NCBI GenBank assembly: GCA_032139905.1
Contig: JAQJDB010000007.1
Span: 62,001-126,000, forward strand
Reading direction: 5' to 3'
DNA length: 64,000 nucleotides
From: Nitrospira sp. MA-1
GTDB taxonomy: Bacteria; Nitrospirota; Nitrospiria; Nitrospirales; UBA8639
Shown: one piece after another, positions 2-55,409 of the stretch
How the letters are laid out: every line of letters begins with the position of its first letter
How positions within the stretch are numbered: the first letter of the stretch is position 1
Program-made: the position numbers and the translations under genes
The notes under the pieces: generated by a model
The model's input: the letters and a program-made list of their open reading frames with translations, nothing else
What the model was told of the DNA's origin: nothing
The model's database searches: none

Positions 2-361
2 GCGTTGGAAAATCACGACCTGGTCTGTTTGCATATTCCCTTTTATGAGTGGGCTTTCAAGGATGGGCAGGCAGTGTCACCGTCACAATTAGGTGAATAT
101 CTTGGGCAAGTGGACGAGCAGGTGATCGGAGCCATCCATCAGTCTGATGGAAGCAAGGACTCACATCGGATCGTCGTCCTGGTGACCCCAAGTCCGCATG
201 GGCACAATGATGGAGAGGCTCCTGTATCGCCATATCTGGTGTTTGAAGGGTCGGAGGGGAAATCCGAAATTCATGCGGTCCCATTGAATGAACGGGAAGT
301 GGCCAACCGTCCCCTCCGTGATGCCACCAAATTGTTTGAGCGGTTTCTGGGGACTCACTAA
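2..361 (+). CDS. C-terminal part of a phosphoglycerate mutase-like protein (partial)
   Basis: The reading frame is open to the left edge, so only the last ~120 residues are present and the start lies outside the window. A C-terminal pattern of a beta strand (RIVVLVTP), a histidine-containing loop (PSPHGHND), then [10 protein letters not shown] and a closing amphipathic helix ([11 protein letters not shown]) resembles the end of archaeal-type cofactor-independent phosphoglycerate mutases (ApgM, alkaline phosphatase superfamily). The DH pair usually seen in that loop appears as PSPH, so the match is imperfect. It ends 5 bp before lysC, which suggests one operon. ApgM-like genes next to threonine/lysine pathway genes are known and may act as homoserine kinase-type enzymes; that role is inference. 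Confidence 0.45.
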
Positions 362-5641: not shown

Positions 5642-5982
5642 TGGCGATTCATTCCCTGCTGCTGACGATGTTCGAATCATTCACAAATACACTCATGACC
5701 ATGTCGTTTGAGGAACTCCTCTGGATCGGTTTTGGGTTTTTGGGGCAGGGCATTTTTTTCTCACGCTGGTTGGTGCAATGGGTGGTGTCGGAACGCAACG
5801 AGGAAAGCCAGATTCCCATGTCATTTTGGTATATGAGCCTGGTTGGGAGTGTGATTGTACTCACCTACGCCATTCATATTGCCGACCTGGTATTCATGGC
5901 CGGCCAAAGCGTCGGAACCGTGGTGTATGTCCGCAATATCATGCTGCTCCATCAGGCCAATAAGCGAGTCGTGAGTGGATAG
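5626..5982 (+). CDS. LAB_N-domain membrane protein (lipid A biosynthesis N-terminal domain)
   Basis: 118 residues with three hydrophobic segments. The sequence GQGIFFSRWLVQWVVSE followed by SQIPMSFWYMSLVGSV is the signature of the LAB_N family (PF07578), found alone or fused in lipid A and lipid-linked sugar modification loci. The family is thought to work with GT2 and GT39 enzymes in handling lipid-linked sugars in the inner membrane. ATG 5626 lies in a hairpin loop; ATG 5668 is an alternative that removes 14 residues. The 3' end overlaps the next gene by 8 bp, so the two are co-translated. Confidence 0.8.
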   Translation: MEGTLLAIHSLLLTMFESFTNTLMTMSFEELLWIGFGFLGQGIFFSRWLVQWVVSERNEESQIPMSFWYMSLVGSVIVLTYAIHIADLVFMAGQSVGTVVYVRNIMLLHQANKRVVSG

Positions 5983-7714
5983 CTCTCACACTCACACTCT
6001 CTTTCCGTCCTTTCTCCGCTCTTCAATAACGCAATCGCCTCTTTCCCATCTGGTGTGTGTCCTGCTTCTGGCTGCCTGGCTATTGGGAGTAGAGGGCGGA
6101 TGGCTTCTTGGTCCGGATCTGGGGGCCCTCGGGTTGACGGACCGGGATGAGGGGAGCAATGCGGAAGCGGCAAGGGAAATGCTGGAGACCGGTGATTGGA
6201 TTTCCCCGACTCTCAACTATGAACCTCGCTATGCCAAACCGGCTTTTGTGTATTGGCTCATCAGCGGGTCCTATGCCCTGTTTGGCATGAATGAATTTGC
6301 CGCGCGGTTGCCTTCGGCTTTATCAGGTCTTTGCCTCCTGTTCCTTCAATATGTGTTTGTTCGAAGGTGGGCTGGCCTCACCGTGGCCATTTTTGCGTCG
6401 TGCATGTTGCTGCTGAATTTGGAGTTTTTGGGCATCAATCGCATGGTGCTGACTGATCCGGAACTGGTCGTGTTCACCACATTGGCCGGCTATAGCTTTT
6501 GGCACGCACTCCATCATGAACAGACCAAGCGCTGGCTGTTCGCCATCTTTTATCTGGCTATGGGATGCGGCATGTTGGTCAAGGGGCCCGTGGGCATTAT
6601 CATTCCGCTGATGGGGGTGATTCCCTATCTGACGTTGACGCGCCAATGGGGAATATTCTGGCAACGGGGCTTTCCCCTTGTCGGGATCGTGTTAGTTGCC
6701 GCTGTCGCGGCTCCCTGGTATGTGATGATGTTTCAAATACATGGGGATGCCTATTGGGCCGCGGCACAGGCCAATACCACCGGACGGTTCATGAATCCTA
6801 TGGAAGGTCATGGGGGGACGCTCTTATTTTATGTGCCGGTGTTGTTGGTTGGGTTTTTCCCATGGAGTGCCTTTCTCTTTTCCGTACTGTATGACACGTT
6901 AAAACGCTGGAAGGCATTCTGGCAGGGACAAGGCCTTGCCACGCAAGAGCAACATTTGGAGTGTTTCCTGAGCCTCTGGGTGGTGGGATTGTTGCTGTTC
7001 TTTACCCTCTCGGCCACGCGCCTGCCCCATTACATCTATCCTCTGTTTCCGGCGGCAGCCCTGCTGGTCGCTCTGTGGTGGAAGCGTTTCTTGAGAGAGG
7101 ACGCGCCGGTTGGACTGATCGCTTCCACTCGAGTCCTCATTGCGGCGGGATACCTCCTGGGTATCGCGATGATGTTTGTGCCGGCGATTTTTCAGTTGTT
7201 CATGAAGCAAATTGCCAAAGAATTTCCCGCTGCGGTCAACATAGACCTGGCGTGGCTTCCCTCACTGGTAGGCCTCGTCATGGTGGTGGGAACCATGCTC
7301 ATGCGTCAGTGCATGCAATCTGACGCCAAACGCCATCTGGCTTTATGGGTGGGATGCGGGATGATGCTGATCTTTACGGTATTGGTCGCACGAGGAGGAC
7401 TCTCGATTTACCAACAGTATTTCATCGGCCCCCCGCAGGAATTAGCTGTCATTGCCGGTTATAACTTGGGCCCGGATGACCGATTGATACAATTCGGCCG
7501 GAAACGCCCCTCCCTCAGTTTTTATGCCAAACGCAAAGTACACTTTCTTGGAGTGAATGATGAAGAACTCCCCCAACACCTTAATGCTCCCGGCCGAAAA
7601 ATGGCCATTATCCAATCTCAGCTTCGCGGACAACTTCCTGAAGCCATGGCCCATTGGACTGTTGTTCTGGACCACGGCGGTTTTTCTCTCCTCACCAGCG
7701 AACCCCTCTTATAA
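5975..7714 (+). CDS. ArnT-like family 39 glycosyltransferase
   Basis: 579 residues with about 11-13 hydrophobic segments. The first periplasmic loop contains LTDRDEGSNAEAAREMLETG, the acidic active-site loop of the PMT/ArnT (GT39/GT83) family, followed by KPAFVYW and RLPSALSG. Such enzymes move a sugar from undecaprenyl phosphate to lipid A or a protein on the outer face of the inner membrane. The gene starts with GTG 5975, overlapping the LAB_N gene by 8 bp. The last ~43 codons are repeated 767 bp downstream (see 8352-8481), so the 3' end was duplicated by an insertion or recombination event while this copy stayed full length. Confidence 0.87.
   Translation: MDSSHTHTLFPSFLRSSITQSPLSHLVCVLLLAAWLLGVEGGWLLGPDLGALGLTDRDEGSNAEAAREMLETGDWISPTLNYEPRYAKPAFVYWLISGSYALFGMNEFAARLPSALSGLCLLFLQYVFVRRWAGLTVAIFASCMLLLNLEFLGINRMVLTDPELVVFTTLAGYSFWHALHHEQTKRWLFAIFYLAMGCGMLVKGPVGIIIPLMGVIPYLTLTRQWGIFWQRGFPLVGIVLVAAVAAPWYVMMFQIHGDAYWAAAQANTTGRFMNPMEGHGGTLLFYVPVLLVGFFPWSAFLFSVLYDTLKRWKAFWQGQGLATQEQHLECFLSLWVVGLLLFFTLSATRLPHYIYPLFPAAALLVALWWKRFLREDAPVGLIASTRVLIAAGYLLGIAMMFVPAIFQLFMKQIAKEFPAAVNIDLAWLPSLVGLVMVVGTMLMRQCMQSDAKRHLALWVGCGMMLIFTVLVARGGLSIYQQYFIGPPQELAVIAGYNLGPDDRLIQFGRKRPSLSFYAKRKVHFLGVNDEELPQHLNAPGRKMAIIQSQLRGQLPEAMAHWTVVLDHGGFSLLTSEPLL
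7585..7714 (+). repeat. Direct repeat, copy 1: 3' end of the GT39 gene
   Basis: These 130 bp recur at 8352-8481 with about 12 mismatches by hand count (roughly 91% identical), both ending at the stop codon. The repeats bracket the toxin-antitoxin remnant. Confidence 0.9.
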
Positions 7715-7857: not shown

Positions 7858-8046
7858 TTAGTTGGAATTTAAAGGATATTCCAAGGATATTCCAAGGAGA
7901 AGATTCCAATTGGGAGAGATCTCGACTGCCATGAAAATACGTTCGAGAAATTGTTTGGCGTAATCGGGAGAGTCTTTTGAGATGTACGTGTGGAGGTCCT
8001 GGAGGTCAGTTTTGGCTCGAAATGACCACTCGATTGTCATGGCCAA
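7858..8046 (-). pseudogene. Truncated ParE/RelE-type toxin
   Basis: 62 codons. The N-terminal half (IEWSFRAKTDLQDLHTYISK, then DYAKQFLERIF) fits the ParE/RelE toxin family, where the first half forms two helices. The C-terminal beta strands with the usual catalytic or gyrase-binding arginines are missing; after residue 43 the sequence no longer matches the family and soon stops. Family members are about 95 residues, so the toxin is probably inactive. It overlaps the antitoxin gene by 41 bp, more than usual, which may also reflect frameshifting. Confidence 0.6.
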
Positions 8047-8215
8047 GTATTTCAGCCTTCAGTTGTTGATGGGGAACGGTACGCCCCACCTCGATATCAG
8101 CCAACCCGGTTTCCAATTTCTGTTTCACATACAATTCATACATAATATCATTCCAGGTCACCTGATCAGATAGTCGTTCGAGAACTTCGCGGGCAGCTTC
8201 TTTGGCGGTGGCCAT
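8006..8215 (-). CDS. Antitoxin of a ParE/RelE-type module
   Basis: 69 residues: an N-terminal helical part and VTWNDIMYELYVKQKLETGL, a pattern shared with the antitoxin at 51687-51875 (TWDDLMHEIYVREAIEKGL). Such small proteins bind and neutralise ParE-like toxins and repress their own promoter. GGAGA lies about 8 bp before the ATG. The C-terminal ~12 residues overlap the toxin gene in another frame and may not be original. The partner toxin looks broken, so this may be a leftover antitoxin. Confidence 0.65.
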   Translation of the reverse strand: MATAKEAAREVLERLSDQVTWNDIMYELYVKQKLETGLADIEVGRTVPHQQLKAEILGHDNRVVISSQN

Positions 8216-8351: not shown

Positions 8352-8481
8352 TGCTCCCGGCCGAAAAATGGCCATTATCCAAACTCACCTTCGAGGACAA
8401 CTTCCCGAAGGCATGGCCCAGTGGACTGTCGTTCTGGACCACGGCGGTTTTTCTCTCCTCACCAGCGAACCTTTGCTCTAA
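8352..8481 (+). pseudogene. Direct repeat, copy 2: detached 3' end of the GT39 gene
   Basis: Encodes APGRKMAIIQTHLRGQLPEG and the remaining C-terminal residues of the GT39 transferase in frame, ending at the TAA at 8479-8481, with no upstream gene body. It differs from the 7585-7714 copy at scattered, often synonymous positions, so it is either an old duplication or was brought in from a related strain. It has no start of its own. Confidence 0.85.
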
Positions 8482-9880: not shown

Positions 9881-10085
9881 TGCCGGGTTTCGCCCCGGCA
9901 GGCGAGGCCCTTTTGTTTCGGCAAAAGGACCCAAAACCATTGACGCCCCGTCTGGACTCATTGGAAAGGATGGACGCCAGTCTTAGGAGGGCGGACCAAC
10001 TCGCTCCGCTCAAACAAGGCCCGCCAACTGAGGAGAGCGTCCATCCTTGTGGGCCAGCCGGCAGGCGTCGGAGCAGGGGAGACGA
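9881..10085 (+). repeat. Double-hairpin intergenic repeat, copy 1
   Basis: Begins with TGCCGGGTTTCGCCCCGGCA (hairpin), then CCTTTTGTTTCGGCAAAAGG (second hairpin), and ends near GGCAGGCGTCGGAGCAGGGG. Four more copies occur at 48161-48355, 51109-51305, 52661-52858 and 56261-56458. Short open frames across it are by-products of its composition. Confidence 0.9.
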
Positions 10086-10445
10086 ACAATTCGCTGGCGC
10101 ACATGAAACAGCGACGAGGCCTAAATTCTGTATGATCCCTTTTACAACCCCGCGGACTGTCTTCTCTCATGAGCATACGATCCTCAACAATAAACTTAGA
10201 GCTAAGAAAACTCATTTCATCTTGACATATTTTGGGGATTGAAGTTGAATTAGTCAGGTCTGTTCACCAATCATCAAATCCTACAAAAGTGTAAGAAGGT
10301 TTGGATGTTGATGAGGGTCATCCAGATTCTGCAAGGAATGCATTAGTTCGTTACTGAGTTTTTATCGACTTTTGTTGAGCCGAAGCAAAGAGCCAAACAA
10401 TGAAGGATCAATAAAAAACACTAATGATATTGGAAAGGAAAATCT
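10086..10445. other. Non-coding stretch before the DUF5343 gene
   Basis: AT-rich, no supported gene. It probably holds the promoter of the DUF5343-HEPN operon, but I cannot fix its boxes. Confidence 0.4.
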
Positions 10446-11081
10446 ATGGCAGGGTTACCCTACGTTACTGCGCCAGGAAATATTGAAAAGGCGTTAAATG
10501 GAATTAAGTCAGCTGCAACACCGGAGCGAGTAACCCAAGACTTCGTGAAAACGATTCTTCATATTCCCGGCGGATCAGGGGACCAAATTACCTCGTTTCT
10601 GAAAAAAATTGGTTTTGCGAATTCAGATGGTACCCCATCTAGTATTTATAAAAAATTTCGTAACGATGCTACTTCTGGGCAGGCAGTGGCTGAGGCATTG
10701 AAGATTGGTTATACCAATTTGTATATTCGAAATGAATACATGCATAGTTTGTCAGACAAGGAGTTGAAAGGATTAATTATTGAAGAAACTGGCCAGAGTG
10801 AGGGCTCAAATGCCGTCAGCTTTGCATTGGCATCAATTAAGGCACTTAAGAAATTCGCTGAATGGGGGAAATCGATTGTTGAGGAAGTTAAGGAAATGCC
10901 TTCGCCACCTAAAAGCCCTCAAGATTTACCTTTGCCTGGCGGTTCCAAAAATTCTGGAGTTGGTCTAAATCTGTCTTACACGATCAATCTAAATCTTCCT
11001 GCAACGTCGGACATTTCTGTTTTTAATGCAATATTCAAGAGCCTGAAAGACAACCTTTTAAAAGAGGCTGGAAGTGAGTAG
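10446..11081 (+). CDS. DUF5343-domain protein, partner of a HEPN protein
   Basis: 211 residues. The N-terminal ~140 match the DUF5343 pattern as I know it: LPYVTAPGNIEKALNGIKSA, VTQDFVKTIL, FLKKIGFANSDGTPSSIYKK and the segment NEYMHSLSDKELKGLI. A Pro/Ser linker follows and then a beta motif NLSYTINLNLPATSD with a closing helix, often seen at the end of DUF5343 proteins. AAAGGA lies 8 bp before the ATG. It overlaps the downstream HEPN gene by 8 bp, so the two are translationally coupled. The biochemical role is unknown; as the partner of a HEPN RNase-like protein it may be an antitoxin or sensor. Confidence 0.75.
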   Translation: MAGLPYVTAPGNIEKALNGIKSAATPERVTQDFVKTILHIPGGSGDQITSFLKKIGFANSDGTPSSIYKKFRNDATSGQAVAEALKIGYTNLYIRNEYMHSLSDKELKGLIIEETGQSEGSNAVSFALASIKALKKFAEWGKSIVEEVKEMPSPPKSPQDLPLPGGSKNSGVGLNLSYTINLNLPATSDISVFNAIFKSLKDNLLKEAGSE

Positions 11082-11661
11082 AACTGATGACCATGTGCGA
11101 TCCTTTGGGATGTCAGGATATATGATCACTGATGATCTGAGAAATGTTGAAGAGCGATATAGTATTGAGCTAGGACATGCATCAAAATCATTAAGCGACA
11201 CACCAACTGAGTACTATCCTCAGTTTGAGCAGAGTGTTCGTGCTGAGGCGAATGAAATGTCTCGGCACTATGAGTTGTTTTATTGTCTTGAAAATGCCAT
11301 AAGAAAATTGATTACAGAGACTCTTCATGAAAGTGAAGGGAGGGAATGGTGGGACAGTGGAAAAATACCAGCAGACATTGTTCGTCAAGTTAAAGGACGT
11401 ATTCTAAAGGAAATTGATAGCGGGGTGACCCGACGTTCAGATTCTGATATTGATTACACCAACTTTGGTGAGTTGTCAGTAATTATTACGACAAACTGGG
11501 ATCTGTTTGGAACGATTTTTTCAAGTAGGCGGGCTGTCGAGAAGGTAATGAGTAGCTTGAATTTGTTACGAGGACCAATAGCACACTGTTGTCCCTTGTC
11601 AGAAGATGAGATTGATAGGCTTAGGCTAACAGTTAAGGACTGGTTTCGAATGATAGGATAG
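11074..11661 (+). CDS. Swt1-type HEPN-domain protein (putative RNase)
   Basis: 195 residues. The C-terminal ~135 carry the Swt1-HEPN pattern: YELFYCLENAIRKLITETL, then DIDYTNFGELSVIITTNWDL and LNLLRGPIAHCCPLSEDEID. The last contains R166-x4-H171, the HEPN catalytic Rx4-6H motif, so the nuclease site looks intact. HEPN proteins of this sort cleave RNA in toxin-antitoxin and phage-defence systems. It overlaps the DUF5343 gene by 8 bp and is followed 114 bp later by a membrane protein gene cut by an insertion sequence. AT-rich composition points to horizontal acquisition. Confidence 0.78.
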   Translation: MSRTDDHVRSFGMSGYMITDDLRNVEERYSIELGHASKSLSDTPTEYYPQFEQSVRAEANEMSRHYELFYCLENAIRKLITETLHESEGREWWDSGKIPADIVRQVKGRILKEIDSGVTRRSDSDIDYTNFGELSVIITTNWDLFGTIFSSRRAVEKVMSSLNLLRGPIAHCCPLSEDEIDRLRLTVKDWFRMIG

Positions 11662-11775
11662 GGTCAATGACCTGCAACCTTCAGATATTACCTTTTTCCA
11701 GGGGCGGATTTAACGAAGGTCGGCCAGGAATTTGAGTACTAACTGAATTGGTGCCTAATTTCTATAGGCTATTTA

Positions 11776-12164
11776 ATGAATCGTTTTAATATCCAATTAG
11801 CAAAAACAATTGTTCCGATTCTGCTTTCCGTACTTAGCTTTGGTCTGGGTATGTGGAGCAAAATGGCCAATGGTTTACTCCTACAAAATTCGACCACCGA
11901 ATGGGTTGGTTTTATCCTTATTGCTTTGTTAATTCCTTTGTATACAATACAAATTTCGATCCAACTATCACTTTACCCTGATCTCAACTCTATAGCCGGA
12001 GATATAGGAAAAGCGATAAGTGAAGGAAAAGTAGTTTATGTGGGAAATGCAGTCGAGGCTGCTCCAATTGTGATTGATCGTCTAAAAACTGCCTCAGAGG
12101 CGCTAAACACGTATCTCATTTCTGATGAGGTGCCATTTCCAAAAAAGATTAGTGAACTGAGAAG
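11776..12164 (+). pseudogene. N-terminal part of a membrane protein gene split by an insertion sequence
   Basis: About 130 codons before the insertion at ~12165. Two hydrophobic segments (TIVPILLSVLSFGLGMW and WVGFILIALLIPLYTIQI) form a hairpin, followed by a soluble part (GDIGKAISEGKVVYVGNAVE). The reading frame then enters insertion-sequence DNA and stops at 12216 with insertion-encoded residues. The matching C-terminal part probably resumes at 14708. The gene is downstream of the DUF5343-HEPN pair on the same strand and could have been its third member, with a membrane role. I do not recognise the family. Confidence 0.6.
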
Positions 12165-12212
12165 TGGACCCCGATTTCTGGACAGCTTGATAAGTGAAAT
12201 TTCTGCTTTTCA

Positions 12213-12710
12213 TTAGGCTGCTTGTTTCTCTCTGGGATCGGCAAAATACACCGCGTCTGGTGTTTGGCGATTCAACGCCTGATGGCCCCGTTCCGTGTTA
12301 TAGAACTGAAAATAGTGAGTCAGGCCCATACGTAGAGCCGCTGGGGTTTCATATGCTTGCAGATACACGTCCTCATACTTGACGCTCCGCCAAAGCCGTT
12401 CGACGAACACATTGTCGACCCACCGACCTTTGCCATCCATACTGATCGTCACGCCGTGGGATTTGAGCACGGCCGTGAATGCTTCACTGGTGTATTGCGC
12501 TCCCTGATCCGTGTTGAAGATCTCCGGGGCTCTATAGCGCCCCAGGGCTTCTTCTAAGGCCTCCACGCAGGCCTCGGTCTCTAGGGTATTCGACACCCGC
12601 CAAGCCAAGACCCGGCGCGAATACCAGTCCATGATTACCGTGAGATACATAAAGCCTTTGGCCATCGGAATGTAGCAGATATCGCTCGCCCCGGCCTGAT
12701 TGGGCCGAGA
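12213..12710 (-). pseudogene. IS3-family transposase orfB, C-terminal part (outer copy)
   Basis: Encodes the DDE integrase core from NQAGASDICYIP to the end, with NTDQGAQYTS (second Asp) and VFVERLWRSVKYE (Glu). The Trp usual in NQVWASD is Gly here, a further sign of decay. It is separated from its N-terminal part by the inner insertion sequence, so no complete transposase can be made. Confidence 0.85.
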
Positions 12711-12762
12711 GAAGTGGACCCCGATTTCTGGACAGGGCGCTAAGTGAAACTTCTGCTGGGCA

Positions 12763-13608
12763 TTATGCCGCCTTCGTTGCCATTGGACCTGCCCAATATA
12801 CGGTATCCGGTGTCTGTCGATTCAAGGACTGGTGACGGCGTTCCGTGTTATAGAACGTGAAATAGCCAGTCAGCCCAGCCCGTAGCGCTGCGGGCGTCTC
12901 ATAGGCTCGCAGGTACACGTCCTCATACTTCACACTGCGCCATAGTCGTTCGACGAATACGTTGTCGACCCAACGCCCCTTACCATCCATACTGATTTGC
13001 ACCCCACGATCTTTGAGTGTCGCGGTGAATGCCTCACTGGTATATTGGGCACCCTGATCCGTATTGAAGATCTCTGGCGCCCCATAGCGCAAGAGGGCTT
13101 CTTCCAGCGCCTCCACACAGGCATCCGTTTCCAGCGTATTCGAAACGCGCCACGCCAACACCCGACGTGAGTACCAGTCTATGATGGCGGTGAGATACAT
13201 GAACCCCTTGGCCATCGGGATATAACAGATATCACTCGCCCACACCTGGTTTGGACGTTCAATTCTCAGGCCTCTTAATAAGTAGGGATAAATTTTGTGC
13301 CCCAGTCCTGGTTGACTCGTTCGCGGCTTCGGGTAAATCGCTCGGATCCCCATCTTGCGCATCAACCGTTGAACGCGTTTACGATTCACTCTATGGCCCT
13401 GTTGTTGAAGCTCAACACACAGGCGACGGCTGCCATAGAACGGCCATTTCAGATAGAGCTCGTCGAGTTGGCGCATCAAAACAAGGTCTGCCGCTGAGAC
13501 ATCCTGGGGCCGTGCATAGGCACTCGAACGCGGCACGGCTAACAGCTGACATTGACGAGTCACCGAAAGTCCTTGCTGGGCCTTGAGCATCGCTTTGCGC
13601 TCAGTCAT
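12763..13608 (-). CDS. IS3-family transposase OrfB (DDE integrase core)
   Basis: 281 residues. The N-terminal HTH_21-like part contains PFYGSRRLCVELQQQGHRVN. The rve domain runs from PNQVWASDICYIPM with the first catalytic Asp, through NTDQGAQYTS, to VFVERLWRSVKYED with the catalytic Glu; all three DDE residues are present. It is expressed as a fusion with OrfA by -1 frameshifting. The reading frame is intact, so this copy may still be mobile. Confidence 0.93.
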   Translation of the reverse strand: MTERKAMLKAQQGLSVTRQCQLLAVPRSSAYARPQDVSAADLVLMRQLDELYLKWPFYGSRRLCVELQQQGHRVNRKRVQRLMRKMGIRAIYPKPRTSQPGLGHKIYPYLLRGLRIERPNQVWASDICYIPMAKGFMYLTAIIDWYSRRVLAWRVSNTLETDACVEALEEALLRYGAPEIFNTDQGAQYTSEAFTATLKDRGVQISMDGKGRWVDNVFVERLWRSVKYEDVYLRAYETPAALRAGLTGYFTFYNTERRHQSLNRQTPDTVYWAGPMATKAA

Positions 13609-13916
13609 CGGCCGGGTCCGAGCGCGGTGGCTAAAAAATCCTTCTCCATGGTCAGCTGGCCAATCTTGGCATGCAGCTTCTGCTGGACCTGTTCATGGTC
13701 GGCAGCAGCAACGAGACTGGCGCCAAAAACATGTTCTGCCTTGCTCAGCAGCTGCTTCTTCCAATCTTGGATCTGATTCGGATGTACGTCAAACTGCTCG
13801 GCCAATTCCGCCAACGTGCGTTCGCCCTTGACGGCGGCCAAGGCCACCTTGGCCTTAAACGCTGGGGAATGATTCCGTCGGGATCGTCGTGCCATCTTCT
13901 GCTCCTTTCGTTGCAA
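13605..13916 (-). CDS. IS3-family transposase OrfA (helix-turn-helix protein, inner copy)
   Basis: 103 residues. The HTH_Tnp_1 pattern RRNHSPAFKAKVALAAVKGE followed by LAELAEQFDVHPNQIQDWKK binds the inverted repeats. A leucine-zipper-like C-terminus follows, ending with the slippery TTTTTTA and an ATGA overlap with orfB. GGAG lies upstream of the ATG. Confidence 0.92.
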   Translation of the reverse strand: MQRKEQKMARRSRRNHSPAFKAKVALAAVKGERTLAELAEQFDVHPNQIQDWKKQLLSKAEHVFGASLVAAADHEQVQQKLHAKIGQLTMEKDFLATALGPGR

Positions 13917-13983
13917 ACAAATATAGCGCAGAAGATTTCACTTAGCATCCTCATTATTCTGTCCAAGGACTGGGGACCACTTC

Positions 13984-14336
13984 TGAGTGATGGTGAGGCC
14001 ACGCAGGCGGTAGGGATAAATCTTGTGTCCGTGCCCGGGAAGACTGGTCCGTGGCTTTGGATAGATGGCCCGCAGGCCCATCTGTCGCATCAGACGCTGC
14101 ACCCGCTTGCGATTGACTCCATGTCCTCGTTGTTGGAGGACCGCGCACAGGCGACGGCTGCCATAGAAGGGCCACTTCAGATACACTTCATCCAGGATAC
14201 GCATGAACGTGAGGTCGGCTGCTGCGACCGGCTGTGAGCGTGCGTACGCACTGGAGCGTGGCACGGTCAGCAACTGACACTGCCGCGTGACGGGAAGGGG
14301 TTGCCGAGTCCTAATCATCGCTTTGCGCTCAGTCAT
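13984..14336 (-). pseudogene. IS3-family transposase orfB, N-terminal part (outer copy)
   Basis: Encodes the first ~115 residues (MTERKAMIRTRQPLPVTRQC onward, with PFYGSRRLCAVLQQRGHGVN) up to LRGLTI, where the inner insertion sequence begins. The frame then runs briefly into inner-element DNA and stops. The remainder of the gene is at 12213-12710. Confidence 0.85.
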
Positions 14337-14623
14337 CGGCTGTGCCCAAGCGCGTGTGCTAAAAAATCCTTCTCCATCGTCAACTGCCCGATCTTGGCGT
14401 GAAGTTGTTGTTGCCGCTGCTCCTGGGTGGCCGTTTCGGCTAGACCGGAGCCAAACACATGGTCGGCTTTCGCGATGAGCTGTTTCTTCCAGTCTTGAAT
14501 CTGATTGGGATGGACGTCAAAATGCTCAGCCAACTCGGCGAGAGTCCGGTCGCCCCGAACGGCGGCTAACGCCACCTTCGCTTTAAACGCCGGGGAATGA
14601 TTGCGTCGTGATCGTCGGGCCAT
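14333..14623 (-). CDS. IS3-family transposase OrfA (outer copy)
   Basis: 96 residues, close to the inner copy: RRNHSPAFKAKVALAAVRGD, then LAELAEHFDVHPNQIQDWKK. The slippery TTTTTTA is at 14360-14366 (minus strand). The frame is intact but its orfB is split, so it can supply only OrfA, which in IS3 elements can act as a repressor of transposition. Confidence 0.9.
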   Translation of the reverse strand: MARRSRRNHSPAFKAKVALAAVRGDRTLAELAEHFDVHPNQIQDWKKQLIAKADHVFGSGLAETATQEQRQQQLHAKIGQLTMEKDFLAHALGHSR

Positions 14624-14707
14624 CTTCTGCTCCTTTCGTTGAAGAGGAATATACCGCAGAAGATTTCACTTAGCATCCGAGATGTTCTGTCCAAGACATG
14701 GGGTCCA

Positions 14708-15072
14708 CTGCTCTGGTTGAGGGGGGCATAAGGGAATTTGTTAAACGAAATGACACAAGTTTTGAGGAAACATGTTCTGAAAAGGGTAAGGAGCGGGCAG
14801 ACAATTTAAAGAAAAATTTTAACGGCACCCTCCCAACTTCATATAAGGTTCGTGTAATTAATAAAAGTGAGTTTCCGGCGTGCAATTTCATTATCCTTAC
14901 TCGTAAGGCTTCTGACCCGATACCGCAGGAGATCTTCTTCGGTTGGGGTTTTTTTCGAGGGAATCATAATGAATCAGTCTTTTGGAGCAACGACAAAGAT
15001 CTTATTGGATTCTTTAAGGGTTATCACAAGGCTCTACGAACTAACGATATCTCATCTAGCTACAAGCCCTGA
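14708..15072 (+). pseudogene. C-terminal part of the membrane protein gene split by the insertion sequence
   Basis: About 120 codons in one open frame that runs in from the element end without a start of its own. It encodes a basic helical stretch (GKERADNLKKNFNG) and a conserved-looking end (IPQEIFFGWGFF, NESVFWSNDKDLIGFFKGYH). Left and right parts are both at codon position 2 at the joints. Composition matches the AT-rich genes upstream, which supports one original gene of about 250 residues. Family unknown. Confidence 0.5.
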
Positions 15073-15341
15073 TCAATGCGATGAAAAATTAGATTGGATC
15101 CTTTGACGGTGAATCTACACTTATCCTTTATCTGCCCCCTCCACTCGTATGGTATTAGATGTAGTAATTAAAGCCTACTATTGGGAATGCCCAAAAATAT
15201 TACGAGATTAGGTTGCAGGGTCTAGGTCGATGTTCCCTGGCCAAAAATCAAAATTGAATACTTATATGGGTTAGAAGTAATTTGGGCGGTTCTGGGTGAA
15301 AAATGGGTTCAGATCTTGCGATCAAGCATCACGCTAGTTTT

Positions 15342-16049
15342 TTATTGCAAGGGGGACATAACCTTTTTGGGGACAAATTCTAGGAAGTATTGGCGGGGGA
15401 GGAAGGTGTGTTCTTTGGCTAAGGTAAAGCCGGCTTGTTCCATGTCCTTGATCACTTGTTCTTTCGGAACAAGGTGGCGTTTTGAAAAGCCGAGTGTGCC
15501 TGATCGCTCATCGGCATAGTAGTCGATGATGACCACACGTCCGTTTGGCTTGAGGGCAGGCTTGGTGTTGGCCAGATAGTCGATCTGATCTTCCAGGTGA
15601 TGATAGACATCGCACAAGAATACGATGTCGGCGTTGTTCCCGGAAAATGTGGGACCTTCTGACTCGGCCAGAACAAAACGGACTCTGTTGGCGAGTCCAA
15701 TTTTTTCCAACTTTCCTTTGTTGTAATTCAACATTTTCTGTTCGACATCGATGGCGATGACCTGCCCCTTTTCTCCCACCGATTCGGCAAAGCGACGGGT
15801 GAAATAACCCGAGCCTGCCCCGATATCGATTACCATCATGCCAGGCGTGAGGTTCAGGGCCTCAATGACTTTTTCGGGTTGTTGGTGCTGATCCCGTTCC
15901 GGGCGTTCAAGAGCGTGAATGTATCTGTTGATATCCCATGTTTTATGGGCGCAACTTGCGGTAAGACTGGCGAAAAAAGAGACAAGCAGGAGGCAATGCC
16001 ACAAGGGCCGGTTGTATGGCTTTATTTGAGAGACGATTCGACCCTTCAT
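15342..16049 (-). CDS. SAM-dependent methyltransferase with a lipoprotein-like signal
   Basis: 235 residues. The class I Rossmann fold has the SAM loop MVIDIGAGSGYFTRRFAE near residue 73, then VIAIDVEQKML and DIVFLCDVYHHL. Before this is a basic N-terminus, a hydrophobic segment (WHCLLLVSFFASLTASC) and Cys-33 in a lipobox-like context. It would therefore sit outside the cytoplasm, where SAM is not expected. Such secreted methyltransferase-like proteins are found in several Gram-negative groups; substrate unknown. The hydrophobic stretch may instead be a membrane anchor with the catalytic domain inside. It stands alone, just downstream of the accessory island. Confidence 0.82.
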   Translation of the reverse strand: MKGRIVSQIKPYNRPLWHCLLLVSFFASLTASCAHKTWDINRYIHALERPERDQHQQPEKVIEALNLTPGMMVIDIGAGSGYFTRRFAESVGEKGQVIAIDVEQKMLNYNKGKLEKIGLANRVRFVLAESEGPTFSGNNADIVFLCDVYHHLEDQIDYLANTKPALKPNGRVVIIDYYADERSGTLGFSKRHLVPKEQVIKDMEQAGFTLAKEHTFLPRQYFLEFVPKKVMSPLQ

Positions 16050-16652
16050 AGTTCCTACCTTTCAATTCGTGTGTGAGTTTTGGGTTAACTTTCGAAAGGA
16101 AATTGATTTACTTACATAACGTTTGTGCCGTTGAATTACAAGTATCATTCAAGAATTTGATGAGGAGATTGTCGGTCTTGCGTATCACGAAGATTGGCAT
16201 GCAGATATTCAGCACATGAAATGTACTCTCATCAGGGACATGGGTACATTGATTTTTAAGGGATTTAGCTCTTTCTTTTGAATTCGATCCTCCACACCTG
16301 ATTTTTCCAGAATACCCGGCACATGCCTTTTGACTGATTTTTGGCGACTTATCCTAAAATATCAAAAATTTGCCTTCAAGGGTTTTTGACAGTTACGGCT
16401 TGGCTGGCGAGGTATAGGATGAAGTCAATACCAGTAAATTTCCATGTGCTGAGAGCCTCACCTATTTTGTTCTAAAGTTTTATCGGAAAGGAGGCGTACA
16501 AGAAGGCATTTTTCTTCTGGCCTAAACTGGAGACTTCGAGCCCATTTCCGGGTGCAGTTTTAGGAAGAGGAAAATGGAGTATGAGGATCGAGGGAATTTC
16601 TGGATATGACAAGATTGACGAGCCCTACAAATAAATCAAATCAGGAGGCATT
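16050..16652. other. 600-bp non-coding stretch
   Basis: No supported gene on either strand. It separates two divergent genes. A TTGACA occurs at 16386-16391 and TATAGG at 16413, but with a 21-bp gap, too long for a confident promoter. Confidence 0.4.
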
Positions 16653-17153
16653 ATGAAAAACGTACTAAAAGAAAAATCTATCGTATTATTGGGAAGTTTG
16701 GCCGGAACCTGTTTGCTGGCGACAGTAGCCTTTGCCAATCCATCTATGTTGCCGGATCACGCCGGTTACCCGATGAAAGAAACGAAAAGTCCGGTGACTG
16801 GCTCATCCACGGCTTATGACTCAGGGCAAGAAAACTTGTATGGCCAAAAAGCCTTGAATGCTGCAACTAAAGAATACACTGAAGACCTGGAAACCCGTCG
16901 GTCTGGTTCTATGAGAGGAAACGAGTCAGAGAGCCAGAAACCAATGGGTGATCAATCTCAAATAGGTGGCCAGGACCAGGACCAGATGGCGGGCCAGGAG
17001 CATATGACGGGCCAGGACCAGATGGCGGGAAAGGAACATATGACGGGAAAGAATCAAACTACCGGACAGGACCAAAATGAAGGTCAAAACCAGATGAGAG
17101 GGCTAGACCAAATAAAGAGCCAGAGCCAAAGCGAGCTGGACACCGGAAAGTAG
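16653..17153 (+). CDS. Secreted Gln/Gly/Met-rich repeat protein
   Basis: 166 residues. A signal peptide (VLLGSLAGTCLLATVAFA) precedes a short region and then a low-complexity tail of GQDQM, GQEHM and GKEHM repeats. AGGAGG lies about 7 bp before the ATG. The frame stops at TAG 17151, but the +2 frame continues the same composition (TGQSQNPGQSPNSTQDSR) to a TGA at 17210-17212, so a recent frameshift has probably shortened the protein by about 19 residues. Location is likely periplasm or surface. Function not recognised; stress-related repeat proteins can look like this. Confidence 0.65.
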   Translation: MKNVLKEKSIVLLGSLAGTCLLATVAFANPSMLPDHAGYPMKETKSPVTGSSTAYDSGQENLYGQKALNAATKEYTEDLETRRSGSMRGNESESQKPMGDQSQIGGQDQDQMAGQEHMTGQDQMAGKEHMTGKNQTTGQDQNEGQNQMRGLDQIKSQSQSELDTGK

Positions 17154-17233
17154 TGACGGGGCAAAGCCAGAATCCTGGACAATCTCCAAATTCTACACAG
17201 GACTCCCGCTGAGGTAATAGATTAACTATCATT

Positions 17234-17261
17234 CCGAGGGGGATGTTATGGGCCCCCTCGG
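17234..17261 (+). terminator. Terminator-like hairpin after the repeat protein gene
   Basis: CCGAGGGGG (17234-17242) pairs perfectly with CCCCCTCGG (17253-17261); a mixed AAAAAGATTTT follows instead of a clean T run. It lies between convergent genes. Confidence 0.55.
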
Positions 17262-17334
17262 CAAAAAGATTTTGTAGGCTAATTTCTGGAGGAAGCTCCT
17301 GAACCCGATAGACAGTGAAAAGTGAGTTCTTTTA

Positions 17335-18444
17335 TTAAGCGGGCAAAAGTGAACCTGATCGAATGATAAAAGTCAGGAGGGCAAGAAAAAACATGCCGAG
17401 TCCTATGAATGCTTCAATCCAAATGGGATTGAGCCCTGCCAATAAGCTATTCTGGTCTTCAGTTGTTAATTCGTAATGACTTCCCATCCACCAAATCATT
17501 CCCGTCATTAGACCTGCTCCAAGAACTACCACACTTCCCGTTGTGGTCGCTAATCCAAGTCCCATAAGCAGGCGCGGCCATTGAGGTGGTAATCGTCCTG
17601 AAGATGAGCTTCCTGGGGAAGAAAGTTCCCGAATCCACCAGAGTCTGAGACCCAATCCTACCCCTAACGCCATTAGCCCGAGAAAAAGTGAGAGAGACGG
17701 TTCCAACTCAATGCCTGGATGGGGAACAATAATCCAAACCATTCCAAATGCCGTGACCAGCCAGGGGAGTCCATGTGTGAGTGTGTGCTGAGAGAGCCTC
17801 TTCCACTTGTGTGGAGGATGAATGATGATCAGGGCGGTTCCGATCCCCACCAGTATTCCCCCCAGCACATCCGTAGGAAAATGGGCGCCGGTGATGACAC
17901 GGCATATTCCACCAAACGCGGCTAACCCGAACCACAGGTATCGGGCATTGGGAAAATAATGCGCAAGAACCGTGGCCACGGAAAATGAAGCGGTGGTATG
18001 ACCGGATGGAAAGGAGTCCCATCCACTTTCAAATGACGGGGCGATTTCCCAGTCCTGACCTTGCTTGAGTCTTGGGCGGGGGCGGCCGATGGTGTGTTTC
18101 AATATTTGAGTGAAAAGTCCGGCGACGCCATGGGCGAGTAAGGTATGAATACATGCAGACTTCCAGGCCGGCCATCCAAGCCGGAATCCCACTGCCCCAA
18201 TTCCCAATGAAATGAGCACCAGAGTCAGTCCGTCTCCTAAATGATTTCCTACATTGCCAATGTGGTCGATGGCCGGATGCGTGAAACTGTGAACGATCTG
18301 GATGGTCGGGCCATCGACCAGAGCCAGAGAAGCGAACAAGCCAAAAAAGAGGAGCCCGGATAGTCCGAATACCACAAGAGGGGACTGGGGGAGGAGAAAT
18401 TGCGAACGTCGAGGTGAAGGAGATGCGGGTGATTGGTCAGTCAC
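17335..18444 (-). CDS. PAP2-family membrane phosphatase
   Basis: 369 residues with about eight membrane segments. The three acid-phosphatase motifs are visible: KHTIGRPRPRLK, FPSGHTTAS, and CRVITGAHFPTDVLGG (with Cys where Ser is usual). PAP2 enzymes of this type remove phosphate from lipid phosphates such as undecaprenyl pyrophosphate or phosphatidic acid in the inner membrane. The C-terminal third adds membrane segments beyond the core, making it longer than UppP2/PgpB (about 200-250). No operon partner. Confidence 0.87.
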   Translation of the reverse strand: MTDQSPASPSPRRSQFLLPQSPLVVFGLSGLLFFGLFASLALVDGPTIQIVHSFTHPAIDHIGNVGNHLGDGLTLVLISLGIGAVGFRLGWPAWKSACIHTLLAHGVAGLFTQILKHTIGRPRPRLKQGQDWEIAPSFESGWDSFPSGHTTASFSVATVLAHYFPNARYLWFGLAAFGGICRVITGAHFPTDVLGGILVGIGTALIIIHPPHKWKRLSQHTLTHGLPWLVTAFGMVWIIVPHPGIELEPSLSLFLGLMALGVGLGLRLWWIRELSSPGSSSSGRLPPQWPRLLMGLGLATTTGSVVVLGAGLMTGMIWWMGSHYELTTEDQNSLLAGLNPIWIEAFIGLGMFFLALLTFIIRSGSLLPA

Positions 18445-52165: not shown

Positions 52166-53481
52166 AAAATTCGAACAAGGCGCTTTTCTCGGATGCTCGT
52201 TCACTTGCGTCGGTTAGTGCTGACGTTCAGCCGATCGCAGGCGGAGAAAAGGATGCAAAGGGGGTTGAAGAGAGTTGTGGCTGCTCGATGTGGGATAGGA
52301 TATAGGGTCAAATTTGTTATTGACGAATCTCTGCTTCCACCGGTTCTTGAAGCCTTTGCCTGCGGATTGCTTCTCCATACCTACGCACGAAACTTTCTAC
52401 AACAAACTTGAATCCTGTTTGGTTTCTTTTGAACATCCTAAAGGGGTGGCATGCAAGGGGCCCCGTGCACCTTAGGAGAGAGACATCAACAGGCTGTCAT
52501 CCTGAGCTATTAGCGAAGGATCTGTGCCCAGGGGGAATAGCCAGGGTCTAGCAAAATATTTCCTGAAACCTGTCCTGAGTTTGCCAGTAAAAGGTGTGGG
52601 CGGGGGAATACATCGCACGTATTATGTTCCCCAACCTTATGCTCATGTAATGTTCTGTGTTGCCGGGTCTCGCCTCGGCAGGCGAGCCACTTTTGTTCAG
52701 GCAAAAGTAGCCAAAACCAGTGACGCCCCGCCCGTCTCATCTGATTGATCGGACGCTAACCACGGGAGAGCGGGCCAACTCGCCAGGCTCACACAAGGCC
52801 CGCCAGGAAAAAGAGCGTCCGATCAGGGGACGGGCGGCAGGCGTCGGATCAGGGGAGATGAAACTTTTAGGGTCAGGGTATGGGAACAAATCTGTTGGTG
52901 ACGAAATTCTGTCTCCATCTGTCCCATCCGCTTTTTGAAGCATTTGCCTGCGGATTTCTTTCCCATTCCTCCACACGAAACTCTCAACAAAAGACTTGAC
53001 CCCTGTTTTTTCTCAAGAAGGCCCATCGCTTCAATCCCTGTCTGGCATGAAACGTTATTGGGCGAAACAACGCTGAGGGTCCCATCCGGACCGGAGCAAA
53101 TTATTGAATATCAGAAGAGGAAAAAAACTCCGGAAGCGGTATGAATGAAAATCAGAAGCCTTGACATATTTACAACGTTGTACAAGAATCTGTCGCATCG
53201 ATACTGGCCGTATTGTGTGGCCCAGGTGTTTCGAGTACACACATGAGGGACCGAAAATGCCAGGGAACTGCATGAACACTTGAGGGATGAGGATGGCATA
53301 GGATGCCATTCGGGTGAACGCATTGAAATGCCAACGATCATGTCGTTATTTTCAGAAAATTCGATGGTGTGTTATACGGCCAAGAATACGCAGATCCGTC
53401 TTTTATGCGGATCCCCCTAAACATTTTTAAATGTCTTGCTATATCGAAATAACCATTATATGAACAAAACAGAGATAAGTG
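52166..53481. repeat. 1.3-kb repeat mosaic before the DGQHR gene
   Basis: No gene. In series: the CAAATTTGTTATTGACGAAT repeat at 52305-52412, the GTCATCCTGAGC/GAAGGATCT repeat at 52489-52560, the double-hairpin repeat at 52661-52858, the CTGTTGGTGACGAA repeat with its continuation at 52870-53110, and the TGTCGCATCG/GAGGGACCGAAAATGCCAGG repeat at 53137-53390. Confidence 0.75.
52661..52858 (+). repeat. Double-hairpin intergenic repeat, copy 4
   Basis: TGCCGGGTCTCGCCTCGGCA, then CTTTTGTTCAGGCAAAAG (stem kept, loop changed), ending GGCAGGCGTCGGATCAGGGG. Preserved pairing despite base changes. Confidence 0.88.
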
Positions 53482-54450
53482 ATGACAGAGAAAAAACGTA
53501 GATACTCAATCAGCCAAGTTACTCAAGGAAGCCATAAGTTTTATACATGCACAATCCCTAGCGATGTGTTGGCGAAGTGTTGTTTCGTTTCCACAAGGGA
53601 TGAGGACCCTCAAAAAGGGTTTCAGCGAATATTAGACAAGAAGCGGGCTGCAGAAATAGCCAAGTATATTGACTCAGGCTTAGGCACTATCCCTAGCTCA
53701 ATTATTCTTTCAGCCCAAGAAGAAGCGGACCTCAAAATTGTTGGGAAAGGGAAAACAGTTGAATTTAACGATACTCCAAAGGCATTTTTAATTCTAGATG
53801 GGCAGCACAGGGTGTATGGATTTTCTTTAGCCGAATCTACATTGAGGATTCCAGTAGTTATATATAACGATTTATCCCGCCGCGATGAATCAAGACTATT
53901 TATTGATATCAATTCTAAGCAGCGAGGCGTTCCCAATGAGCTTTTGTTAGACATTAAAAATTTAGCTGAATATGAAAGCAACGAGGAAAACTTGATGAGA
54001 GAGGTATTTGATCTCTTTAACAGTGATCCAGAAAGTGCATTCTTAAATAAGTTTTCTGCTTCTTCCAGGGCGAAAAAAAAGATCACGAGAGTCACTTTCA
54101 ACAATTCAATAAAACCCTTGCTTAACGTATTTAGAGGAAAAGATGCTGAAGAAATATATTCCGTATTAAATAGTTATTTTTTGGCTTTTATTATTGGCTT
54201 GAAAGAAATTAATTGCGATGAGTCGATATTAGGAGCTGTTGTGTTCCGTGCTATATCAAACTTTTTCCCAATCGCTGCCTCGAAATTGAAAGACCGGCAT
54301 GGTGCTAATTACTCTGTGGATAATTTCTACGAAGCTATGGAGGGGTTATTTTCGCGTATTAAACCGGCCAGATTTAATAGCCCTGGAACCTCTTATAAAG
54401 CTCTATCAGATCATCTAGAAGATAACATCAAGTCAGAATTTACTTTGTAA
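53482..54450 (+). CDS. DGQHR-domain protein (DndB-like)
   Basis: About 322 residues from the ATG at 53482. The signature LILDGQHRVYGF sits near residue 105-116, preceded by FQRILDKKRAAEIAKYI and followed by RLFIDINSKQRGVPNELL. This is the DGQHR family, which includes DndB, the regulator of DNA phosphorothioation. It lacks DndCDE neighbours, so it is a stand-alone member. It overlaps the next gene by one base (TAATG), a strong sign of a two-gene unit. AT-rich, unlike the backbone. A defence role is plausible from such pairs but not shown. Confidence 0.85.
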   Translation: MTEKKRRYSISQVTQGSHKFYTCTIPSDVLAKCCFVSTRDEDPQKGFQRILDKKRAAEIAKYIDSGLGTIPSSIILSAQEEADLKIVGKGKTVEFNDTPKAFLILDGQHRVYGFSLAESTLRIPVVIYNDLSRRDESRLFIDINSKQRGVPNELLLDIKNLAEYESNEENLMREVFDLFNSDPESAFLNKFSASSRAKKKITRVTFNNSIKPLLNVFRGKDAEEIYSVLNSYFLAFIIGLKEINCDESILGAVVFRAISNFFPIAASKLKDRHGANYSVDNFYEAMEGLFSRIKPARFNSPGTSYKALSDHLEDNIKSEFTL

Positions 54451-55409
54451 TGAAGCATATAGAACTACTTAGGCCAATATTGCTTCAGGGGCTATTAAAC
54501 ACCGAAATACCTGTCGAAACTACGGACTTCAAGAAATGGGTATCATCTGGCAACTATATAGTAAGAGATATTCCTTCAAACAAAGTTATAGAAATAGAAG
54601 TTAACAATGAATATGCTTTTAACCATATGGTTGCTTTTGACAGCTGTAGAATGGCAAGTGCGTCCTTTGAAACAATGGAAAGCATTCATTCCATATCTTC
54701 ATTGCCTAAATCTTTTGCATGGATAGCTATCAAATCCTATTACGCAGCTTTTTTTTCTGCGCACTCCATCATGAGATGCTTTGGCAATATCTGTAGTCAG
54801 CTGGAACGGAGTCATGTTACCCAGTTAAATAGTTATGGTTTGACGGTTGGGTTAAAAAACTCTATTCGGTCAGATGCAGGGTTTTTTGCCGGCAAATATG
54901 ATCCCCTTACTAGATTGCTTGTGCTGGAGAAGATGAGCAATACACATGAGGATACCTGGAGAGCATTTAAAAAATGTTTGCAAATCATTAGTAATAAAGT
55001 GCTTACTGTTTCGGGTTTGACAGTTCATAAGCAACAAGTATCCGCAACGGTTGATGATATTATTTTTAGACTAACTGATAGAGGTCGACTTTCAAAAGGA
55101 AACTACCTTTCTCAATACAGAAACGCCGTCAATTATCGGCAGGAACACGATGCTTGGCATCCATATGGAAAGAACTCAATAAAATCAGAAAAGATCATTG
55201 GAATTTTGTCTGGATGGAGACAAGAAGACAGCATATCTCCTGCTGTTTGGAAAGAATCAAAAGATTCGTATAGTTTTTTTCTAACCTGCAGAGACGTGGT
55301 AAGTCTAAACCACCAAATTATTAACTTGGTGATCAGTAACTCCGAAAATGCGGCAAATATGTACAGGCGATGGCCAGGCAAATTGCTTAGCCTAGCAACA
55401 GCGGCATGA
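54450..55409 (+). CDS. Protein of unknown function paired with the DGQHR protein (possible HEPN-like)
   Basis: 319 residues, no signal or clear membrane segment. A helical stretch PKSFAWIAIKSYYAAFFSAH followed by SIMRCFG resembles the HEPN-type helix pattern. Further on NYRQEHDAWHPYG contains R-x6-H, which fits the HEPN motif but may be chance. It starts inside the stop codon of the DGQHR gene (TAATG) and ends 207 bp before the DUF2283-like cassette. Its strong coupling suggests a partner or toxin to the DGQHR protein. Not a family I know. Confidence 0.65.
   Translation: MKHIELLRPILLQGLLNTEIPVETTDFKKWVSSGNYIVRDIPSNKVIEIEVNNEYAFNHMVAFDSCRMASASFETMESIHSISSLPKSFAWIAIKSYYAAFFSAHSIMRCFGNICSQLERSHVTQLNSYGLTVGLKNSIRSDAGFFAGKYDPLTRLLVLEKMSNTHEDTWRAFKKCLQIISNKVLTVSGLTVHKQQVSATVDDIIFRLTDRGRLSKGNYLSQYRNAVNYRQEHDAWHPYGKNSIKSEKIIGILSGWRQEDSISPAVWKESKDSYSFFLTCRDVVSLNHQIINLVISNSENAANMYRRWPGKLLSLATAA

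Follow-up and report, generated by a model that had tools for sequence, protein, structure and literature searches.

The window, that is, the whole stretch of 64,000 nucleotides of Nitrospira sp. MA-1 DNA that was analysed, contains two adjacent genes, A and B, encoding a DUF5343 protein and a Swt1-type HEPN protein, respectively (Table 1). Both reading frames are intact, and the family matches of both products lie far beyond chance. The stop of A and the start of B overlap by 8 bp, just as the sequence-only reading had described, and the two genes are likely to be translationally coupled through this overlap. The pair was also correctly described as AT-rich, the G+C contents of the two genes being 0.43 and 0.40, against about 0.50 in the surroundings.

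Table 1. Coordinates of the gene pair, its functional segments and the surrounding accessory segment (nucleotide positions of the window; residues of the encoded proteins)
Feature	Position	Strand	Description
Accessory segment containing the pair	10072..17372	.	blastn against same-genus genomes
Gene A	10446..11081	+	211 aa; DUF5343 domain, linker, conserved C-terminal tail; PADLOC PDC-M34A, E 1.9e-37
DUF5343 domain of gene A	residues 5-142		Pfam PF17278, E 1.2e-38
Variable linker of gene A	residues about 143-174		
Conserved C-terminal tail of gene A	residues 175-206; codons 10968..11063	+	NLSYTINLNLPATSDISVFNAIFKSLKDNLLK
Overlap of A stop and B start	11074..11081	+	8 bp; sequence
Gene B	11074..11661	+	195 aa, GTG start; predicted RNase effector; Pfam PF18731, PADLOC PDC-M34B
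HEPN Rx4H motif R166-G-P-I-A-H171 of gene B	codons 11569..11586	+	R166 and H171 conserved in all 20 B sequences aligned

Gene A carries the DUF5343 domain at its N-terminus, as had been recognized from the sequence, with a Pfam score of 133 bits (cut-off 27). The C-terminal motif, noted earlier as NLxYTINLNLP, is present as NLSYTINLNLP at residues 175-185. Within A, conservation (mean top-residue fraction) is highest in the tail (0.67), lies at 0.45-0.50 in the DUF5343 domain and is lowest in the linker (0.22). When the tail profile was searched alone in 290 genomes, its matches were confined to DUF5343 ORFs. PDB sequence searches with the A profile yielded weak matches only, including one to MJ223, a protein of winged-helix type (1ku9, E 0.011), and the DUF5343 part of A is possibly winged-helix-like. 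The AlphaFold models, computed from six-row alignments, were of low confidence (pLDDT 40 for A and 47 for B).

Gene B matches HEPN_Swt1 with 52.3 bits (E 8.1e-14; curated cut-off 27.5 bits). The Rx4H motif reported in the second gene (LRGPIAHCC) is intact, and its numbering as R166 and H171 was correct; in an alignment of 20 B sequences sharing 24-71% identity, these are two of only 12 invariant residues. The low-confidence model of B is all-helical, and a PDB sequence search with the B profile returned nothing. B is, by profile, a member of the Swt1-like HEPN proteins (the Swt1/Abi2 group), which belong, together with the Ymh and DUF4145 families, to the HEPN RNases described from defence and toxin-antitoxin systems (Anantharaman et al. 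2013, PMC3710099). It shares the active Rx4H form with the bacterial members of the group. Eukaryotic Swt1, a fusion with a PIN domain, is probably inactive, and the known bacterial Swt1-like proteins often occur in fusions with ATPases and other domains; B, by contrast, stands alone, and its DUF5343 partner is encoded separately. Based on these sequence features, B is predicted to be an RNase effector.

The sequence-only reading knew of no described function for such a pairing. The pairing itself is already catalogued: PADLOC-DB 2.0.0 lists it as PDC-M34, and its models PDC-M34A (PDLC04589) and PDC-M34B (PDLC04592, E 3.8e-39) cover the two proteins almost from end to end (residues 5-204 of A and 5-195 of B). 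With both models matched and the genes adjacent, no difference from PDC-M34 was found, and the pair is a member of this catalogued candidate kind. PDC systems are guilt-by-embedding candidates, mostly without experimental validation (PMC12988326). As for function, the earlier statement may still stand: preprints aside, no paper in the literature searched named DUF5343 or PDC-M34 or showed a function for the pair, although PDC-M34 may have been validated elsewhere.

The blastn matches to four same-genus genomes (L110, L111, L112 and L113) all stop at 10071/10072, and those to L112 and L113 restart at about 17372-17633; this places the pair in an accessory segment, together with the IS3 copies. 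The claim that the pair is next to insertion sequences holds for the downstream side, where IS3-type transposase genes (rve, HTH_21) occupy 12.2-14.6 kb, but no insertion sequence was seen immediately upstream. The region 12159-14712 holds a pair of related IS3-type copies that share 76-77% identity, with one apparently lying inside or beside the other. A 146-aa membrane-protein ORF (11776-12216) runs up to the IS3 element, on the far side of which lies an orphan ORF (14698-15072); the two ORFs may be parts of one interrupted gene. The membrane-protein ORF was considered as a third component of the system and rejected, as it was present only at the window locus among the pair loci searched. 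On the other side, a G+C-rich intergenic stretch (9881-10072) is kept in several same-genus genomes in differing contexts, after HxlR in G997 and after an ArnT-like gene in others, and every match ends at 10072. This stretch could represent a repeat or boundary element found throughout the genus.

We searched for DUF5343 in samples of four phyla, and matches were found in 14 of 295 genomes of the window's own phylum, 11 of 398 in the phylum of a Pseudomonas genome (G299), 26 of 297 in that of an Acidobacteria MAG (G296) and 4 of 39 in that of a further MAG (G295). These searches yielded 33 DUF5343 genes bearing the conserved tail, namely the window gene, three from genomes reached through B and 29 found independently of B. 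All 33 are directly followed by a small gene on the same strand. Conversely, a B-profile search of 584 genomes from two phyla retrieved 12 B-family genes (E 1e-26 or better; one, in G220, truncated), each with A directly upstream. The weaker matches of the B profile lay within longer open frames of 321-763 aa. The single remnant that searching with B turned up, a 27-residue B fragment, comes from a Bradyrhizobium genome from which A is absent. The pairing is reciprocal, with A as the constant partner, and the expected co-occurrence of DUF5343 and Swt1-HEPN genes across genomes was thereby confirmed.

The identity of the downstream gene, on the other hand, varies. The partner is a Swt1-HEPN protein in 21 cases, a Ymh-HEPN protein in seven, a DUF4145-like HEPN protein in four and a protein without a family assignment in one. 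Five of the Ymh partners were tested directly against PF09509 and gave E values of 1e-25 to 1e-29, and the remaining two were assigned by alignment or by eye; one of the DUF4145-like proteins exceeds the Pfam cut-off, and the other three, 60-62% identical to it, fall just below. The HEPN status of these partner families rests on Pfam and on their prior description (PMC3710099), and profile-profile comparison of the families detected no homology beyond the motif. The Ymh partners keep Rx4H as RNPRGHE (RNPVTHE in one), whereas in the DUF4145-like partners the standard motif is replaced by GDKS[AS]H, and therefore not all partners need be catalytic. The remaining partner, in G719, carries no family assignment: a PIN nuclease was rejected for this protein, given its score of 19 bits against a cut-off of 21.9 and its RNECAH motif. 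None of the Ymh, DUF4145-like and G719 partners tested matched PDC-M34B, so the relatives with Ymh or DUF4145-like partners match the catalogued system in their A protein only. The Ymh-type partners match the HEPN part of PD-Lambda-3 and Aga, while the models of these systems are not matched by B of the window.

The phylum of G296 also contains a separate family of weak DUF5343-like proteins lacking the tail (L046-L061). None of these 16 loci has a HEPN gene next to it, and the seven included in the tree formed a clade of their own; the family was set aside. After many of these genes comes one for a conserved helical protein, about 150-170 aa long (e.g. MEKSEKNFLEKLADAIPGLSGYR), which has no family match and is not HEPN.

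The phylogeny of A places the Swt1-partnered genes in one group (97/92 support), and the partner types require five changes on the tree compared to 16.9 with shuffled labels. The partner types are thus far more clustered than expected from shuffling, indicating that few changes of partner type took place. One supported pair of sisters, L034 and L062, differs in partner, with L062 on a long branch. In this tree, A of the window clusters with Acidobacteriota and Pseudomonadota copies and apart from the copy of its own family, a placement that points to horizontal transfer. Within the genus, DUF5343 was found in one of 20 genomes, that of the window. The A and B distances are highly correlated (r 0.92 for 19 pairs; none of 10000 permutations as high), a correlation that is also expected from joint inheritance alone. 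Synonymous sites are saturated relative to the nearest relatives and dN is 0.23-0.31, which points to purifying selection on both A and B.

The neighbourhoods of the pairs were less telling. Around 16 pairs we found few defence genes (one DarTG and a few PDC genes), and the 128 neighbours showed no clear excess of defence genes over 128 control ORFs, so that a location of the pairs in defence islands is not supported. No copy of A was present in the phage, plasmid and viral-contig collections, and a search of the phage and plasmid collections with B found only distant Swt1-HEPN proteins, on plasmids. The proposal of a candidate defence or toxin-antitoxin system is nevertheless favoured by the co-occurrence of the two genes, the invariant Rx4H, the patchy accessory distribution and the relatedness across phyla.

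Two further regions of the window deserve description. A DndB/DpdB-like gene (Pfam DndB, E 4.6e-17), directly followed by a 319-aa ORF without a Pfam match, occupies 53479-55409, the most AT-rich part of the window (G+C content 0.37), and the two are possibly another defence-related pair. In addition, the 3' end of the ArnT-like gene (5975-7714) is duplicated (7585-7704 and 8352-8471; 94% identity over 120 bp). The duplication encloses a ParE-like toxin gene on the reverse strand (7858-8046; ParE_toxin at the cut-off) and, upstream of it on the same strand, a small gene (8006-8215). Two genomes of the genus, G996 and G997, do not have the insert, which suggests a site of insertion at the gene end.

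We propose that A and B make up a mobile effector/regulator module, toxin-antitoxin or abortive-infection in type, with B as the HEPN RNase effector and A as its obligate partner, acting as regulator or trigger; this proposal we rate at about an even chance. From the sequences we infer RNase activity, inhibition by A, docking of the tail, sensing and phage defence, in the following manner. A would be translated first and coupled to B through the 8-bp overlap. The tail of A (YTINLNLP plus helix), carried on the flexible linker, would dock onto the partner HEPN, and the DUF5343 part would sense a trigger, such as a phage nucleic acid or protein. In uninfected cells, A would hold B inactive; infection would free or activate B, which, through R166 and H171, would cut cellular or phage RNA, so that growth would stop. 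Counting against this proposal are the defence-gene content around the pairs, not clearly above that of the controls, the absence of A from the phage and plasmid collections, and the altered motif of the DUF4145-like partners.

The chief rivals are a plain toxin-antitoxin module and a host RNA-processing RNase. As a type II-like addiction module without phage sensing, the pair would consist of an RNase toxin, B, and an antitoxin, A, whose N-terminal part would bind operator DNA and whose C-terminal tail would block B. We consider this possible, if rather unlikely. The obligate, reciprocal pairing (12 of 12 B genes with A, 33 of 33 tail-bearing A genes with a downstream gene) is as in type II systems, as are the small overlapping genes with the regulator first, and the layout of A, an N-terminal domain, a linker and a conserved C-terminal tail, recalls many DNA-binding antitoxins; its weak match to MJ223 is also in favour. 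However, the plasmid collection contained no A, the sequence upstream of the pair showed no operator-like repeats, and patchy distribution and exchangeable effectors are typical of defence systems too. The pair also resembles the HEPN-MNT toxin-antitoxin systems in having two small adjacent genes, one of them HEPN. The partner in those systems is a minimal nucleotidyltransferase, whereas A is a DUF5343 protein with no nucleotidyltransferase match in Pfam, and therefore control by AMPylation is not expected.

Another explanation would be that B is a regulated RNase of host RNA processing or the stress response, with A as its adaptor and no anti-phage role. Some HEPN proteins do have housekeeping RNA roles (PMC3710099), and ordinary metabolism genes flank many pairs. 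However, the pair is carried by at most a few per cent of genomes and by a single genome of its genus, and it has apparently been exchanged across phyla; this pattern is not that of a housekeeping system and makes the explanation improbable. Least probable is a non-functional passenger on mobile DNA, to which the IS3 copies in the accessory segment and the neighbouring gene abutting them might point, since the frames are intact, the catalytic residues are kept and dN has remained low despite saturated synonymous sites.

Returning to the effector/regulator module, the range of partners leads us to a broader proposal, which we regard as evenly poised: DUF5343 with its tail would be a constant sensor/adaptor platform on which HEPN-type RNase effectors can be exchanged. 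Of its effector forms (Swt1, Ymh, DUF4145-like and one without a family assignment), the Swt1 form alone is catalogued, as PDC-M34, and the window pair would be one instance of the platform. The association of one DUF5343 partner with several HEPN families extends beyond the PDC-M34 catalogue, and our comparisons provide independent support for PDC-M34 as a defence candidate. They suggest that the DUF5343 protein, rather than the RNase, is the defining part, and therefore that searches based on Swt1-HEPN overlook 12 of the 33 related systems found here, or about a third. Our findings also raise the question of whether HEPN RNases unrelated to one another may be controlled by one sensor/inhibitor design, by way of the same short tail.
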